Source of the DNA: Candidatus Polarisedimenticolaceae bacterium
Lineage (GTDB): Bacteria > Acidobacteriota > Polarisedimenticolia > Polarisedimenticolales > DASRJG01
Reading direction: 5' to 3'
Length of the DNA: 64,000 bases
Assembly (NCBI GenBank): GCA_036275915.1
Contig: DASUCV010000023.1
Location: 1 to 64,000, forward strand
A program made the translations under genes and the position numbers. Of the stretch, positions 49,865 to 55,682 are shown in pieces. The notes under the pieces are model-generated. The model was not told the origin of the DNA, made no database searches, and saw only the letters and a program-made list of their open reading frames with translations. The stretch's first letter is position 1, and each line of letters begins with the position of its first letter.

Positions 49865-51517
49865 TTACTTCGTCTTGGCTTTGTGCTTCTTGGGGGCCGG
49901 AGATCTCTTCGGCCCCTTTTTCTGTGCCCGCCGCTTTACCATCTTCGGTTTGGACTTCTTCTTCGCCGACTTCGACCGATGTGTTTTCGCCTTGGCAGCG
50001 TGGAATTTCTTTCCCTCGACCACGAGGAGTCGCGGACTATCGAGGGCCTCTGCCATCGCCGCCGCACATGCGGGACAATAGTCTGACACCATGTCGCGCA
50101 TCCGGCAGCGACCCATCGGCCGGTAGAAGTCGGCGCCGCGCTGGTCGGCATTCCCGAGGCACGACTTGGTGTGGTCCTCGACGCTCGTGAATTCGCAACC
50201 CCAGAACGCCCCGAGCGAGAGAAGCTGATCGTCCGGCGGATCGGGATCGCCGTAAAGCTGAACGACCTTGAAGTCATTCTTCGGGTTGTTGTCGATGAAA
50301 TCCGACCGTGCTGCGATGGCGCGCCAAGGTTCGGTCTTGGCCGCGCGGTCCTCCTTCGTCGCCAAGTTCGGGATCGGCGTGACCTTGTCGTAGGCGTCGC
50401 AGCAGATGTACTCGTCGGCAAGGCCCGCGACGACATGTCCCATCTCGTGCGCCGCCGTGACGAGGAACCGATGGACGCTCTCCTTGTGCGATTTCGAGCA
50501 TGCGACGATTCGTTGGTCGCGCCACGCGTGCGCTGTATCGAGATTCAAGTTGCAAATGACGACGACGAGATCGATATGGGTCCATGGCGCGATCTTGCCC
50601 GCGACGTCCATAACAATCTGCGGGTACGGCGTCCCGATGACGTACCGAGTTTTCGTGTCAGTCTTGAAATAGAAGTAGGTGTTCCGCTTTCCGACGCCCG
50701 TCGGCGTCTCGTCGGTGATTCCGGACTCATCGGAAACGACCGTGATCTTGTGAAAGCTGAGAGTACTTGCTCGGCTGCGAAACGGCTGCATGTCACGCAA
50801 GCCGTGTACGAGCGCGTTGGCCAGCGTGTCGAATTCGCGGAGGTCTTGGTTCGTGTGGAATCCGTCCCCCATGATCACGACGTCGAATGACGACTTCGGC
50901 TTCCGACCTGGGTCGAGCGACTGGACGTTCTTGACGTGGCCATGCGGCGCAGGAGTGCCGATCGTGACGGCGAGCGCCGGCGGCGGAGTATTTGGCCTGA
51001 ATTCGAGCGGAACGAGGCCCGGCATCACGCCAAGGCCGCCGAGTACGATCGGGGGAGGCGCCGCCGGAGGCGGCCCAGCGCCGTATTCGAGGTGACCGAA
51101 CATGACGGGGGTTCTCTGAACGAACTTCGCAAGGACACCGCCGCCCCTAACCAGGGCTCGGAAGAGCAGCACGAATCGGCCACCGGGAGGAACCGGAATG
51201 TAGAGCTTCCGGAATTCGCTCGCGACAGGGCCATACCACCTCTGCAGGGCGTCCGGCATATCGTCACGCGGTGACTCGTGGTAGATGGCGTCGCGCGGGC
51301 TGAAGCCATAGCTGGCGATCACGTTGCCAGCGACGTCGATGACCGCTGCCACGAGCTCCTTCACGCCTGCGGACAGCGCGGCCAAGTTCGCATCCGTGAC
51401 CCGTGGAGATCGCGGCTGCACTCCGCCCGGTGCCCGTTCCGCTCGTGCCGCCGCCAAGAGACTGAACGCGGGATCGCCTTCACTCACCAAGAGCGCGAGA
51501 ATCGGATTGGAAGCCAT
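49865..51517 (-). CDS. M64-type metallopeptidase with Lys-rich tail, peptide-cassette partner
   Basis: The 550-residue protein has no signal peptide. Residues about 205-490 match peptidase family M64: VVIMGDGFHTNQDLREF, zinc site HEMGHVVAGLADEY (His357, Glu358, His361), and CRMRDMVSDYCPACAAAMAEAL. About 200 N-terminal residues are unrecognised. The last 45 residues are a Lys/Arg/Pro-rich tail. M64 members include IgA-cleaving peptidases. Here a role in maturing the small peptide encoded upstream is inferred from position. The ATG at 51517 is one base after the radical SAM stop, with GGAGG 10 bases upstream; the in-frame extension inside the radical SAM gene was rejected. Codon bias is weaker than in neighbours. 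Confidence 0.78.
   Translation of the reverse strand: MASNPILALLVSEGDPAFSLLAAARAERAPGGVQPRSPRVTDANLAALSAGVKELVAAVIDVAGNVIASYGFSPRDAIYHESPRDDMPDALQRWYGPVASEFRKLYIPVPPGGRFVLLFRALVRGGGVLAKFVQRTPVMFGHLEYGAGPPPAAPPPIVLGGLGVMPGLVPLEFRPNTPPPALAVTIGTPAPHGHVKNVQSLDPGRKPKSSFDVVIMGDGFHTNQDLREFDTLANALVHGLRDMQPFRSRASTLSFHKITVVSDESGITDETPTGVGKRNTYFYFKTDTKTRYVIGTPYPQIVMDVAGKIAPWTHIDLVVVICNLNLDTAHAWRDQRIVACSKSHKESVHRFLVTAAHEMGHVVAGLADEYICCDAYDKVTPIPNLATKEDRAAKTEPWRAIAARSDFIDNNPKNDFKVVQLYGDPDPPDDQLLSLGAFWGCEFTSVEDHTKSCLGNADQRGADFYRPMGRCRMRDMVSDYCPACAAAMAEALDSPRLLVVEGKKFHAAKAKTHRSKSAKKKSKPKMVKRRAQKKGPKRSPAPKKHKAKTK
49893..49921 (+). terminator. Intrinsic terminator of gdhA, inside the M64 gene
   Basis: Stem GGGGCCG (49893-49899) pairs with CGGCCCC (49910-49916), followed by five T on the plus strand. 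It lies 38 bases after the gdhA stop, within the antisense of the peptidase C-terminal codons. Confidence 0.75.
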
Positions 51518-51518
51518 G

Positions 51519-52688
51519 TCACTGACCCTCCCACGGAGGTCGGGACAAAGGAAAACGATCGCGATACGAGAGCGAGACGAGGTTGTACGCGCAGAGAAAA
51601 TCCGGCACGGTCGTGAGGTCGGAACCGCCGTTGGCATAACCGATCGACATCGGGCAAAGGGAGCATCGCGCGAGGTACCGGCACTCGGCACACTTTCCGT
51701 AGGTCGAACGTTTCGACTGCTTGTCGTGAAAGAGACCCGCGGCACGAACCGCGTCGGGGAACATCGGGAGCCGCTGGGAAACTTCGGGCGTCCGGACATC
51801 GCCGAGGCGCAGCGGGGCCAATCGCTCGCGAAGTCCGGGGGACGGAAACGACTGATACGACTCCGCGAACATGAGACAGCCGTTCGTCTGACCGTCGACG
51901 TCGACCGCGAGCCGCTCGCCGCGCATCACGCCGCACATGGTGATCCGCTTGGGCCGCGGAACGCGCCTGGCCCGACCGGACTTCCGAAAGGCGACCAGAG
52001 GCACGCGGCCGGTTCTCGCGTAGTGCCTCACCGAAGCACGGAAGACACGTCGGAACTGGGCGCGAAGATCCTCGATCATTTCCGGCTTGAAGTACGGATC
52101 GGGCGTCACCTTCGCCGAGACGCCCAGCTCCGGCACGTCCTTCGCGAGAAAGTACTCGACCGAATCGGCGAACCAAGGAATCGTCCGTGGCACGAGAGTC
52201 ATCGCGATGCTCACGTGATCCTCGTACCAGGGTCCGGCGCGCTCGCGCATCTCGTCGAGGAGCGCGTCCAGGACTCGATGCGTTCCCTTCCCGCGAAAGA
52301 TCTGCATCTGCGGCACACCGTCGAAGCTGAGCTGGACGTCGAACGCGTTGGAGCTCAGAAACTCGATCGCCTCGGATGTCATCGACATGCCGTTGGTCAG
52401 AAGGGACAGTTGCACGCGCTGGGTGGGTTTGCGCCGCGCCTTCAGGTAGTCGACGGCACGCCGAATCGTGTCGAACTCGAGCATCGGCTCGCCGCCGAAG
52501 AACACGATTTGGACGCGAGGCTCGGACGACCCGAGTGCGAGGTCGAGCGCCGCCTGTGCGGTCTCCCATTCCATGCTCTTGGCCTTCTTGTCGTCCTGGA
52601 AGCAATACCCACACTTCAGGTCGCAGCGCGACGTGAGAATCACGTCGACCGTTTTCACGCGCGAAATGCTGGGGTGCGGACCCTGCAT
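51519..52688 (-). CDS. Radical SAM/SPASM peptide-maturase-like enzyme
   Basis: The 389-residue enzyme has the radical SAM cluster motif CDLKCGYC (Cys22, 26, 29) and GGEP at 65-68. The SPASM region carries Cys252 and 271, then Cys333, 336, 342, 345 and 366, enough for auxiliary iron-sulfur clusters. The layout matches sulfatase and RiPP maturases that install cross-links on peptides. The ATG at 52688 is 13 bases after the stop of a 74-residue peptide gene, and the peptidase start is one base after its own stop. An upstream frame extension overlaps the peptide gene and was not used. Which chemistry it performs cannot be told. Confidence 0.85.
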   Translation of the reverse strand: MQGPHPSISRVKTVDVILTSRCDLKCGYCFQDDKKAKSMEWETAQAALDLALGSSEPRVQIVFFGGEPMLEFDTIRRAVDYLKARRKPTQRVQLSLLTNGMSMTSEAIEFLSSNAFDVQLSFDGVPQMQIFRGKGTHRVLDALLDEMRERAGPWYEDHVSIAMTLVPRTIPWFADSVEYFLAKDVPELGVSAKVTPDPYFKPEMIEDLRAQFRRVFRASVRHYARTGRVPLVAFRKSGRARRVPRPKRITMCGVMRGERLAVDVDGQTNGCLMFAESYQSFPSPGLRERLAPLRLGDVRTPEVSQRLPMFPDAVRAAGLFHDKQSKRSTYGKCAECRYLARCSLCPMSIGYANGGSDLTTVPDFLCAYNLVSLSYRDRFPLSRPPWEGQ

Positions 52689-52701
52689 CGGCGTTGCCGT
52701 A

Positions 52702-52926
52702 TCAGTCCTTGATCGGCGGCGGACAGTCTCCGCCGACCCAGCGCATCGGACCGCCGAGAGAGTCACCCGACTTGTTTGATTCGAGCTGTTTCGAAACCCC
52801 CTTGAGCATTGCCGCTGCTTCCTTCAACACTCTCTTCAGATGCTTGGCCTTCTTCTTCGACGCGGATGACCCGCTGCGTCTCGTGGTGCCAGGCCGCGCG
52901 GCTTTCTTCTTCGCTTGTTTCTCCAT
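52702..52926 (-). CDS. Small Lys-rich peptide, candidate RiPP precursor
   Basis: This 74-residue protein is not recognised. Residues 1-50 are very basic, with a likely amphipathic helix (AKHLKRVLKEAAAMLKGVSK). The C-terminus changes in composition: GGPMRWVGGDCPPPIKD, with Gly-Gly at 58-59, Trp63, a single Cys68 and three prolines. This leader/core contrast, the size and the radical SAM/SPASM gene 13 bases downstream are typical of modified-peptide precursors. ATG at 52926 has GGAGGA 5 bases upstream, the best ribosome binding site in the area, which supports translation. Cleavage after Gly-Gly and cross-linking at Trp or Cys are guesses. Confidence 0.65.
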   Translation of the reverse strand: MEKQAKKKAARPGTTRRSGSSASKKKAKHLKRVLKEAAAMLKGVSKQLESNKSGDSLGGPMRWVGGDCPPPIKD

Positions 52927-52931
52927 GACAG

Positions 52932-52979
52932 TCCTCCATGGCCCAAGCGGGCCACACACCCGGCCGCGCAGAAGCGCGG
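52932..52979 (-). promoter_or_regulatory. Leader of the peptide gene: strong RBS and two hairpins
   Basis: The Shine-Dalgarno sequence GGAGGA is at 52932-52937. Just upstream are GGCCC-AAGC-GGGCC (52940-52953) and CCGCGC-AGAA-GCGCGG (52964-52979), written on the plus strand. No T-tract follows either one. They may stabilise or separate the peptide mRNA from the kinase message. The gap to the kinase stop is 110 bases and has no convincing promoter. Confidence 0.5.
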
Positions 52980-53036: not shown

Positions 53037-55682
53037 TCAGAAGGTTCCTGGCGGCGCCTCGAGGATCCAGACGTCCCCACGCGTCTCGGAGATCATGCTC
53101 ACGAGCATACGCCCGTTGCGATCCAAATCGAAGAGGGCGCTCGATGGATCTGTACCCGTCAGGGGTGGCGAGAGGGCTGCCGCGCGTCCAGTGCCAAGGT
53201 CGACCCTGCGAACGTCGAACGTCGAGCCACCCCAGACGCCGGACGCGAAGAGCCCGGAGGGCGGGGCGAGCCAGCGCAGCCGCTGGGCGTCCGCACCGTG
53301 GGTGACCCTGCGCAGAGCTCTTCCGTCGATCTGCACGACGAAGATTTCACCGATCCCGTCGATTTTCCGCACGAACGAGATCGACCGTCCGTCGGGCGAC
53401 CATTCGGGTGATGAGTCGAAGTCGGGGCCGGATGTGACGCGGCTTGCCGTACCGATCGCCCGCCCTTCTGCCACCGCTTCGACCCAGATGTGCGGAGTTC
53501 CCCCGCGCTCCGAGACGAACGCGAGCTTGGCACCGTCCGGCGACCACGCGGGCTGGATGTCCGCAGCCGGGTCATCCGTGAAGCGAATGGCCTCTCCGCC
53601 GCGCGACGACATCAGCCAAATGTCGCGCTGGCCGTCGACGATCCTCCAGAACGCAAGCCATCGCCCATCGGGCGAGACGCGCGGAAGCGCGGCGTTCCAT
53701 TCGGTCAGCCGCTCGACGGGACCGGTCGGCTTCCCATCGGCGATCGATTGAGCGGCAAGGCCCATGACACCGCCCCAACGGCCTGAGCAGAAATAAACGC
53801 GAGTGCCATCGGGAGCGATCGCGGGTGCGGTTTCATACGCGGGAGAGCTCAGCCGGACTTGCGAGCCGGTAATCATGTTACGCAGTCCGACGTCTGCGTC
53901 GCTGTTGAAGCTCGTGAAAGCCATGCGCCTTCCGGCACGGTCGATCGTGGGAGTCGTTTCGGGTCCGGTGCCGTAGGTCAGTCTCTCCGGGGAACCGCCG
54001 TTCGCGGAAACACGCCAGAGCGCAAGCGTGCCGTCGCGCATCGATCCGAAGTAAACGTGCGTTCCGTCGGAGGAGAACGCAGGACGTGTGTCGGCCACGA
54101 CGCCATCTGTCAATTGGCGCGCCGTGTGCGCCGTCGGGTCCGCGATCCAGATGTGCGCGGAATCGGCGAACACGATCCTCGTGGCGTCTGGCGACCATGC
54201 AGGGTCAAATTGCCCCCATTGCCCGACGCCATCCTTGGTGAGCGGACTGGCCGCCTCCGGCGCCGCGACCGGCGCGAGGTAGATGCGCGGGTCGCCGTTC
54301 GCGGGCGTCCGCATGAACGCGATCCTTCTTCCGTCGGGTGAGACCGCCGGTCCGTCGGCATCAGGGACGACGAGGGTTGGCGACCCCCCGAGCGCTGGGA
54401 CTTTCCACACGGCGTCACGTCCGCCGCGATCAGAGACGAAAGCCAGAGCGGAGCCGTCCGGAAACCATGTTGGGCGTCGGTCGGCGGCGGGATCGCCGGT
54501 GAGACGCAGCGGGTTACCACCGTGGGCATCGATGAGCCAAATGTGTGAGCCGCCGCCCTCGTCCGAGGCGTAGGCGATGAGCGTTCCGTCGGGCGAGATC
54601 GCCGGATCGTGCTCCGTCCCCGGCGCTGACGTGATCTGGCGCGGCGTCCCGAGAACCACGGGCGCAGGGTCGCCACGATGCCACGCGATCCACGCCGCCA
54701 CCGCGAGCGCCAGCGCTCCACTGGACGCCAAGATCACGGTCCATGACGCCCGTCGACGCGAACCGAATTCCTCCTCGGGATCGAAATCACCCGATGCTCG
54801 GCGCCGCTTCAGGGCCCGCACGTCGGCGAGCATGTCTCGGGCGTCCTGGTAGCGCTCTTCCGGACGCCTTGCGATCGCTTTGCGGATGATCCGCTCGAGC
54901 GCACGAGGCACCGCGTAGTTGAGCCGTCCGATCGCGACCGGCTCCTTGCGCTGGACCGCTTGATAGACGTCCCACTGCGGCGTCGGCGAGAAGGCCGCCT
55001 TGGCCGTGCACATCTCGTAGAGAATCACTCCTAACGCGAAGATGTCGGTGCGCGGGTCCGGCTCCGCGCCGAGGAGCTGCTCGGGCGACATGTACGCGAT
55101 GGTGCCGACGATCTTTCCTTCCTTCGTGAGCTGCGAGCTGTTCGTCGATTGCTGGCTCGCCTCCCCCTCCGCGCTGAAAAACCGAGCTAGCCCAAAGTCG
55201 GTTAGCCGAGCCCGGCCATCCTTGCCGATAAGAACGTTGCCGGGCTTGATGTCGCGATGCAGGACGCCCTTCGCGTGCGCCGCTCGCAGCGCGTCGGTGA
55301 GATCCTCGGCGTGCACGATGATCTCGTCGACCGGAAGCGGCTCGCCGCCGGACAACACATCCGTCAGCGTGGCGCCGTCGACCCACTCCATCGCGATCCA
55401 TGGCAGGTCGCGCTCTTCGAAGACCTCGAAGACGGGGACGATCGTCGGATGCGTAATGCGAGACGCCGCCTTCGACTCGCGGAGGAACCGATGACGGCTG
55501 ACCGGGTCGGAAGCGAGGTGCGGCCACGGGCACTTGAGCGCCGCGTCCCTGCCGAGCCGGACGTCACGCGCGTGGAAAACGATTCCCATCCCGCCGGAGC
55601 CGATCTCCGACAGGACCTCGTAGTGCTGGACGCGATCGCCCGGCCGAGGGAGCCGGGGGTCGTTCCCGCCGTCAGCGGTCAG
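53037..55682 (-). CDS. Transmembrane Ser/Thr protein kinase with PD40 beta-propeller, CTG start
   Basis: The 881-residue protein has a Hanks-type kinase domain (about 14-290). The Gly-rich loop is IGSGGMGIVF, catalytic Lys is in AALK, the catalytic loop is HRDIKPGN and DFGLA follows. One transmembrane helix (about 315-340) comes next. About 520 residues of TolB/PD40-type WD40-like repeats complete the protein (DPAISPDGTLIAYASDEGG; PTWFPDGSALAFVSDRGG), placed outside the membrane. The first ATG falls inside the Gly-rich loop and would destroy it. The frame continues upstream to CTG at 55682, eight bases after AGGAGG, which I take as start. Such kinases are abundant in Acidobacteriota. It lies upstream of the peptide cassette on the same strand. 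Confidence 0.85.
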   Translation of the reverse strand: MTADGGNDPRLPRPGDRVQHYEVLSEIGSGGMGIVFHARDVRLGRDAALKCPWPHLASDPVSRHRFLRESKAASRITHPTIVPVFEVFEERDLPWIAMEWVDGATLTDVLSGGEPLPVDEIIVHAEDLTDALRAAHAKGVLHRDIKPGNVLIGKDGRARLTDFGLARFFSAEGEASQQSTNSSQLTKEGKIVGTIAYMSPEQLLGAEPDPRTDIFALGVILYEMCTAKAAFSPTPQWDVYQAVQRKEPVAIGRLNYAVPRALERIIRKAIARRPEERYQDARDMLADVRALKRRRASGDFDPEEEFGSRRRASWTVILASSGALALAVAAWIAWHRGDPAPVVLGTPRQITSAPGTEHDPAISPDGTLIAYASDEGGGSHIWLIDAHGGNPLRLTGDPAADRRPTWFPDGSALAFVSDRGGRDAVWKVPALGGSPTLVVPDADGPAVSPDGRRIAFMRTPANGDPRIYLAPVAAPEAASPLTKDGVGQWGQFDPAWSPDATRIVFADSAHIWIADPTAHTARQLTDGVVADTRPAFSSDGTHVYFGSMRDGTLALWRVSANGGSPERLTYGTGPETTPTIDRAGRRMAFTSFNSDADVGLRNMITGSQVRLSSPAYETAPAIAPDGTRVYFCSGRWGGVMGLAAQSIADGKPTGPVERLTEWNAALPRVSPDGRWLAFWRIVDGQRDIWLMSSRGGEAIRFTDDPAADIQPAWSPDGAKLAFVSERGGTPHIWVEAVAEGRAIGTASRVTSGPDFDSSPEWSPDGRSISFVRKIDGIGEIFVVQIDGRALRRVTHGADAQRLRWLAPPSGLFASGVWGGSTFDVRRVDLGTGRAAALSPPLTGTDPSSALFDLDRNGRMLVSMISETRGDVWILEAPPGTF

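Follow-up and report, generated by a model that had tools for sequence, protein, structure and literature searches.

The window, the 64,000-nucleotide stretch of DNA analysed here, contains a gene cassette that we read, with a probability of roughly 0.6 for the reading as a whole, as a member of a new RiPP-like radical SAM family with Cys-centred modification of a small peptide, M64 trimming in a CPP sub-clade and sensing by a kinase. The invariant unit would consist of a kinase-PD40 gene, a small peptide gene and a radical SAM/SPASM gene. The enzyme is predicted to bind the peptide and to modify its core around a conserved Cys; the most probable product is a bond between the sulfur of this Cys and a carbon of a residue close by, usually on its upstream side (a thioether, -2 Da). 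Where the cassette belongs to the CPP sub-clade, an M64 peptidase transcribed together with it would then trim or release the modified peptide, and the co-inherited transmembrane kinase, with its predicted extracytoplasmic propeller, would most likely sense the mature peptide or be controlled by it. Confidence is strong that the peptide is the substrate of the enzyme, moderate for Cys thioether chemistry and weak for the kinase as a receptor of the peptide. Such a family would add an enzyme/peptide pair with short, clear cores from poorly studied phyla, outside the curated models.

Table 1. Features of the cassette, in positions of the window
Feature	Position	Strand	Remarks
Transmembrane Ser/Thr kinase, C-terminal PD40 beta-propeller	53037..55682 (about)	(-)	conserved first cassette gene
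Shine-Dalgarno GGAGG of peptide gene	52933..52937	(-)	6 nt 5' of ATG
Small peptide gene	52702..52926	(-)	74 aa, precursor-like: Lys-rich N-terminal part, C-terminal core GGPMRWVGGDCPPPIKD
Putative core segment, residues 58-74	52705..52755	(-)	MRWVGGDCPPP; conserved Cys = residue 68
Radical SAM/SPASM maturase	51519..52688	(-)	389 aa; N-terminal RRE domain not apparent
CX3CX2C radical SAM cluster motif CDLKCGYC	52602..52625	(-)	invariant, 22-sequence alignment
SPASM region, seven cysteines C252 to C366	51591..51935	(-)	invariant, 22-sequence alignment
M64-family zinc peptidase	49865..51517	(-)	550 aa; contains HEMGHVVAGLADEY; CPP sub-clade accessory
M64 zinc-binding motif HEMGH	50435..50449	(-)	sequence; H357, E358, G360, H361 invariant

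The ORFs bear out the three packed minus-strand genes of the original prediction, with 13 nt between the peptide and radical SAM genes and 1 nt between the latter and the M64 gene. The GC3 of the peptide gene (0.72) is close to that of the adjoining genes. Two further assignments held as well, namely a radical SAM enzyme with CDLKCGYC and seven SPASM cysteines (Pfam Radical_SAM, 44.8 bits, cutoff 29.5) and an M64-type zinc peptidase, which passes the PF09471 cutoff (57.8 against 26 bits) and carries HEMGH as its HExxH motif. The view of these genes as a three-gene cassette, however, was incomplete: the genes are real, but the kinase/PD40 gene directly upstream belongs to the unit and had been omitted. 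Two minus-strand segments, 49865-50000 at the C-terminus of the M64 protein and 52830-52926 at the N-terminus of the peptide, are both very Lys-rich, and Lys-rich C-termini occur in the peptides of L034 and L037 (L-numbers denote the loci of relatives, WIN the window locus).

Among 60 relatives, a full-length homologue of the enzyme is encoded in one genome only, which belongs to the same taxonomic order, at 39% identity. Wider searches brought the radical SAM clade to 29 loci in 25 genomes, which form a group apart from the six radical SAM enzymes of the outgroup (SH-aLRT 98). The cassette is found in Acidobacteriota (including Vicinamibacteria), Eisenbacteria, one Gemmatimonadetes-labelled genome and others. 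Its occurrence is sporadic: about 11 of 396 sampled genomes of the window's phylum have it at strong scores, as do 5 of 47 genomes from the phylum to which one Eisenbacteria genome belongs and 3 of 193 genomes of one class, whereas a second genome of the window's family, the only other one covered, lacks it. At all 29 loci, a same-strand kinase-PD40 gene lies upstream and is separated from the enzyme gene by a small ORF (32-152 aa), which has a good ribosome binding site in most of them; in L147, L151 and L181 the kinase is truncated by masking or by the end of the contig. The outgroup radical SAM loci do not display this order. A small gene near each radical SAM homologue was the check proposed with the prediction, and the recurrence of the pairing in 29 loci is beyond chance. 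A conserved small precursor gene next to a modifying enzyme, as expected of a RiPP cassette, is thus a constant feature of these loci. The prediction of a new RiPP cassette stands as far as the peptide/enzyme pair is concerned, which is supported by the 29 loci and by the match between core and enzyme clade, but the anatomy differs, the kinase being constant and the M64 peptidase an accessory. Four genomes carry two cassettes each (L034/L035, L044/L179, L149/L150 and L182/L183), whose peptides and kinases differ.

The kinase gene of the window stops 110 nt before the peptide start on the same strand. Its product matches Pkinase (130 bits) and eight PD40 repeats in Pfam, and displays AALK, HRDIKPGN and DFGLA motifs together with one hydrophobic segment. 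The ATG-initiated ORF (53037-55589) begins within the glycine loop, and the frame remains open upstream to a CTG at 55682-55680 with AGGAGG 8 nt 5' of it; translation is hence likely to start at this CTG. A kinase-PD40 gene lies directly upstream of the small gene and the enzyme gene at 29 of 29 loci, for which chance is not a credible reason despite the 42 kinase matches in the window's genome. Numerous Ser/Thr kinases of that genome share the domain order of kinase, membrane segment and PD40 propeller, but the cassette kinases form a separate clade: against the window kinase they score 494-793 bits, compared with at most 258 bits for the own-genome paralogues. All 26 testable cassette kinases fall on one side of a branch (SH-aLRT 99) that separates them from 27 paralogues taken from the search of the window's genome, and their C-terminal end of the G[DN][IV]W[VIL][LI]EA type is not seen in those 27. 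DFG is kept in all cassette kinases, VAIK-type and HRD motifs in most (ten give no match to the strict HRD pattern), and a strong single hydrophobic segment precedes the propeller in nearly all, indicating that they are likely active transmembrane kinases with the propeller outside. Distances between kinases and between enzymes are modestly correlated (Mantel r 0.33, 12 of 5000).

A further-reaching reading is a signalling system, co-inherited across several phyla, in which the modified peptide would be a dedicated ligand or substrate of the propeller kinase, with the movable recognition domain described below and an optional releasing protease; we regard this as possible, though doubtful. If the kinase is indeed a receptor, radical SAM peptide chemistry would be tied to receptor-like Ser/Thr kinase signalling, for which we found no precedent in the open-access literature, and the cassette would hint at ligands of the large Acidobacteriota kinase class. 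A reading as anti-phage defence was discarded: PADLOC gave no specific match to a defence system among the cassette proteins; it matched only kinase models, within the kinase domain, and, weakly, viperin.

The peptides offer a greater level of detail on the predicted substrate. Cys is present in all 30 peptides of the set, drawn from the 29 loci (L181 has two). Eight of them contain CPP, whereas 0.57 would be expected from shuffles (none of 2000 reached eight), and CPPP is observed 6 times against 0.05 expected. The CPP cores read RWVGGDCPPP (WIN), RVSDGLCPPP (L034), RYYENCPPP (L037), PPWRGGACPPP (L042), PRYVDGCPPE (L045), KTIKNCPPP (L180), PIPECPPI (L039) and, in L036, RWYGGCPPP, present twice within the peptide as VRWYGGCPPP. 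The L180 ORF was chosen by its core and has no Shine-Dalgarno match. The enzymes of the eight CPP peptides form one clade (SH-aLRT 86), so that the motif needs 1 change on the enzyme tree against 7.4 in shuffles. As this tree was built without peptide data, the clade independently supports that enzyme and core belong together. Beyond CPP, a G, N or D stands 1-3 residues before a Cys in 26 of 30 peptides (17.9 expected, 0 of 2000). Other sub-clades have other cores, such as about eight WPGDSC-like (WPGxSC-like) units in L184, two KKGC units in L182 and QVDHTCG..PP twice in L038, and Cys is among the last two residues in L044, L150, L151, L153 and L182. In L181 (2256-2909), a single cassette contains two tandem paralogous peptides, PQVAGDDCKKGLWK and PRVAGADCLKSVWK.

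The conserved GG-x-x-x-W...C-P-P end that had been anticipated is hence seen in part. W/Y...C-P-P is found again in the closest relatives and follows the enzyme phylogeny, but the GG is not conserved; the ends of the neighbouring peptides agree in CPP in eight cases and differ elsewhere, though with Cys in all. Nor is the conserved element always C-terminal, as it lies N-terminally in L045 and L180. Two features of the set speak against our reading. Around the Cys there is no conserved acceptor residue, and peptides from beyond the CPP clade, whose small ORFs were called by position and ribosome binding site, hardly align, so that some may be miscalled.

Besides the cores, peptides share a helical domain (VKDLCAALxxLIxWAxDIREIL, about 35 residues long); in leave-one-out profiles, 13 of 14 segments score higher than shuffles, a few of them by a narrow margin, with L039 as the exception. 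The model of the L036 peptide displays one helix (residues 11-34) followed by a disordered core of low confidence. The order is reversed in L045 and L180, where the helical domain follows the core, and in several other peptides the core lies between two helix-like parts; such a swap of recognition domain and core would have implications for substrate recognition by these enzymes. Separable recognition and core parts, with a conserved or repeated motif, are typical of RiPP precursors and are found here, although the recognition part of the window peptide is unmatched. Its N-terminal half reaches only 1.9 bits against the shared helical domain, so that no copy of that domain is detectable in the window leader, which counts against our reading.

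The enzyme itself has the CX3CX2C motif, the seven-Cys SPASM region and the fold of a radical SAM/SPASM protein, and C252, C271, C333, C336, C342, C345 and C366 are invariant along with the three cluster cysteines in the 22-sequence alignment. Its AlphaFold model (pLDDT 87.8) has CteB (a thioether-forming enzyme), anSME, TigE and ChlB as best fold matches (TM 0.62-0.71), with CteB (5why, TM 0.70) as the best PDB match. No curated family was found to cover the enzyme or the peptides: the peptides tested had no NCBIfam match and the window enzyme stays below the cutoff of every NCBIfam model listed, which led us to reject the named RiPP classes. The ten matches listed in a plasmid search are distant maturases of less than 30% identity. 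Like CteB and the other SCIFF maturases (TIGR03974; PDB 5wgg, 5why), the enzyme may form thioethers, but CteB carries an RRE at its N-terminus and is paired with a Cys-rich SCIFF peptide, whereas the cassette enzyme scores 70 bits against a cutoff of 425 and the window core has one Cys; it was therefore not assigned to them. Neither a transporter nor an RRE domain was seen in the cassette, which is a further point against our reading. A Cys-centred modification would nevertheless fit all peptides, and a thioether to an upstream residue would fit those that end in Cys.

Other chemistries have to be weighed against such a thioether. Cyclophanes are the product of many SPASM enzymes, and a C-C bond from the core Trp or Tyr, with the Cys incidental, could be accommodated by WIN, L036 (both cores), L037, L042 and L045, where an aromatic residue lies within 7 before the Cys. 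The same clade, however, includes L034, L180 and L039, whose core Cys is not preceded by an aromatic residue within that distance; cyclophane models score far below PapB, and Cys is found in every peptide. We therefore did not place the enzyme among the cyclophane SPASM proteins and regard an aromatic cyclophane as unlikely. Oxidation of the Cys without a cross-link, for example to formylglycine, would agree with the anaerobic sulfatase maturases (anSME, PDB 4k36-4k39), which act on a Cys peptide, are of similar length and, with such a peptide bound, rank high among the fold matches (TM about 0.66); the Pro after the Cys would agree as well. Their CxPxR target is nevertheless found in 1 of 30 peptides and in none of the CPP set, and the score of 55.7 bits against the sulfatase maturase cutoff of 349 excludes membership, leaving this chemistry with perhaps a slim chance.

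A bond from the Cys to an Asp or Glu side chain a few residues downstream, as formed by the ranthipeptide maturase PapB, is suggested by the nearest NCBIfam model, PapB (NF047865), with 110 bits for the window enzyme and 104-152 for its relatives; as PapB is itself a thioether enzyme, this top-scoring model also counts for our own reading. The two families share a two-gene peptide/SPASM logic and Cys in the substrate; PapB tolerates C-Xn-D with n of 0-6 (PMC9413430), and D/E occurs within 7 residues downstream in 6 of 9 CPP cores. All these scores are far below the cutoff of 340, so that membership was rejected. The native CX3D/E spacing is seen in 2 of 9 CPP cores only, no D/E lies within 7 in L180, L039 and one L036 core, five peptides have the Cys in their last two residues, and the cassette differs further by its kinase and M64 partners; a PapB-type bond is thus improbable. 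Radical SAM enzymes also mature larger proteins, and the enzyme might instead act on the kinase or the M64 protein, with the small ORFs as regulators or miscalls. The divergence of peptides outside the CPP clade would suit that explanation, but most loci lack M64, the core motif tracks the enzyme clade, and there are tandem cores and Shine-Dalgarno sites; we consider it very unlikely. A thioether at the conserved Cys remains our preferred chemistry.

The prediction knew of no described class that combines this precursor pattern with an M64 partner, and in the open-access literature we found none with either feature, so that an earlier description elsewhere is possible. The closest hints in print come from clusters 59 and 115 in a radical SAM map, which hold uncharacterised peptides with a conserved Asp-Cys and, in one of the two, also a peptidase (PMC9062424). 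Their partners are a recombinase or several radical SAM enzymes, Asp-Cys occurs here in some peptides only (window, L181), and the likeness is one of peptide motif. The same literature offers nothing relevant on M64, kinase or propeller partners of radical SAM RiPPs, and M64 goes unmentioned in a review of RiPP leader proteases.

The M64 peptidase, which had been taken for a core partner, turned out to be an accessory of the CPP sub-clade. It lies directly downstream in five cassettes (WIN, L034, L036, L037 and L180). Among loci with at least 1.5 kb of downstream sequence, 5 of the 6 in the CPP clade have it and none of the 18 elsewhere does (Fisher 1.4e-4, without correction for kinship), and its absence from these 18 rules it out as a core gene of the cassette. 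This distribution suggests that M64 goes specifically with the CPP core, and with moderate confidence we propose that it would be the processing enzyme of CPP peptides. The window protein resembles known M64 peptidases (PDB 3p1v, 4df9) in keeping HExGH, though a RiPP role of that family was not found in the literature searched. All five cassette proteins have HExGH and finish in a segment of the CRMR or CIMR type that contains CxxC; HExGH, EY and CRMR..C..C are invariant in the four that were aligned, and the fifth, from L180, reads alike. The M64 proteins of L036, L037 and L180 are lipoprotein-like, whereas that of the window has a Lys-rich C-terminal tail and no recognisable signal peptide, a difference that counts against our reading. 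At L038 (11306-15616), two paralogous secreted M12B-like proteases are found where M64 would be.
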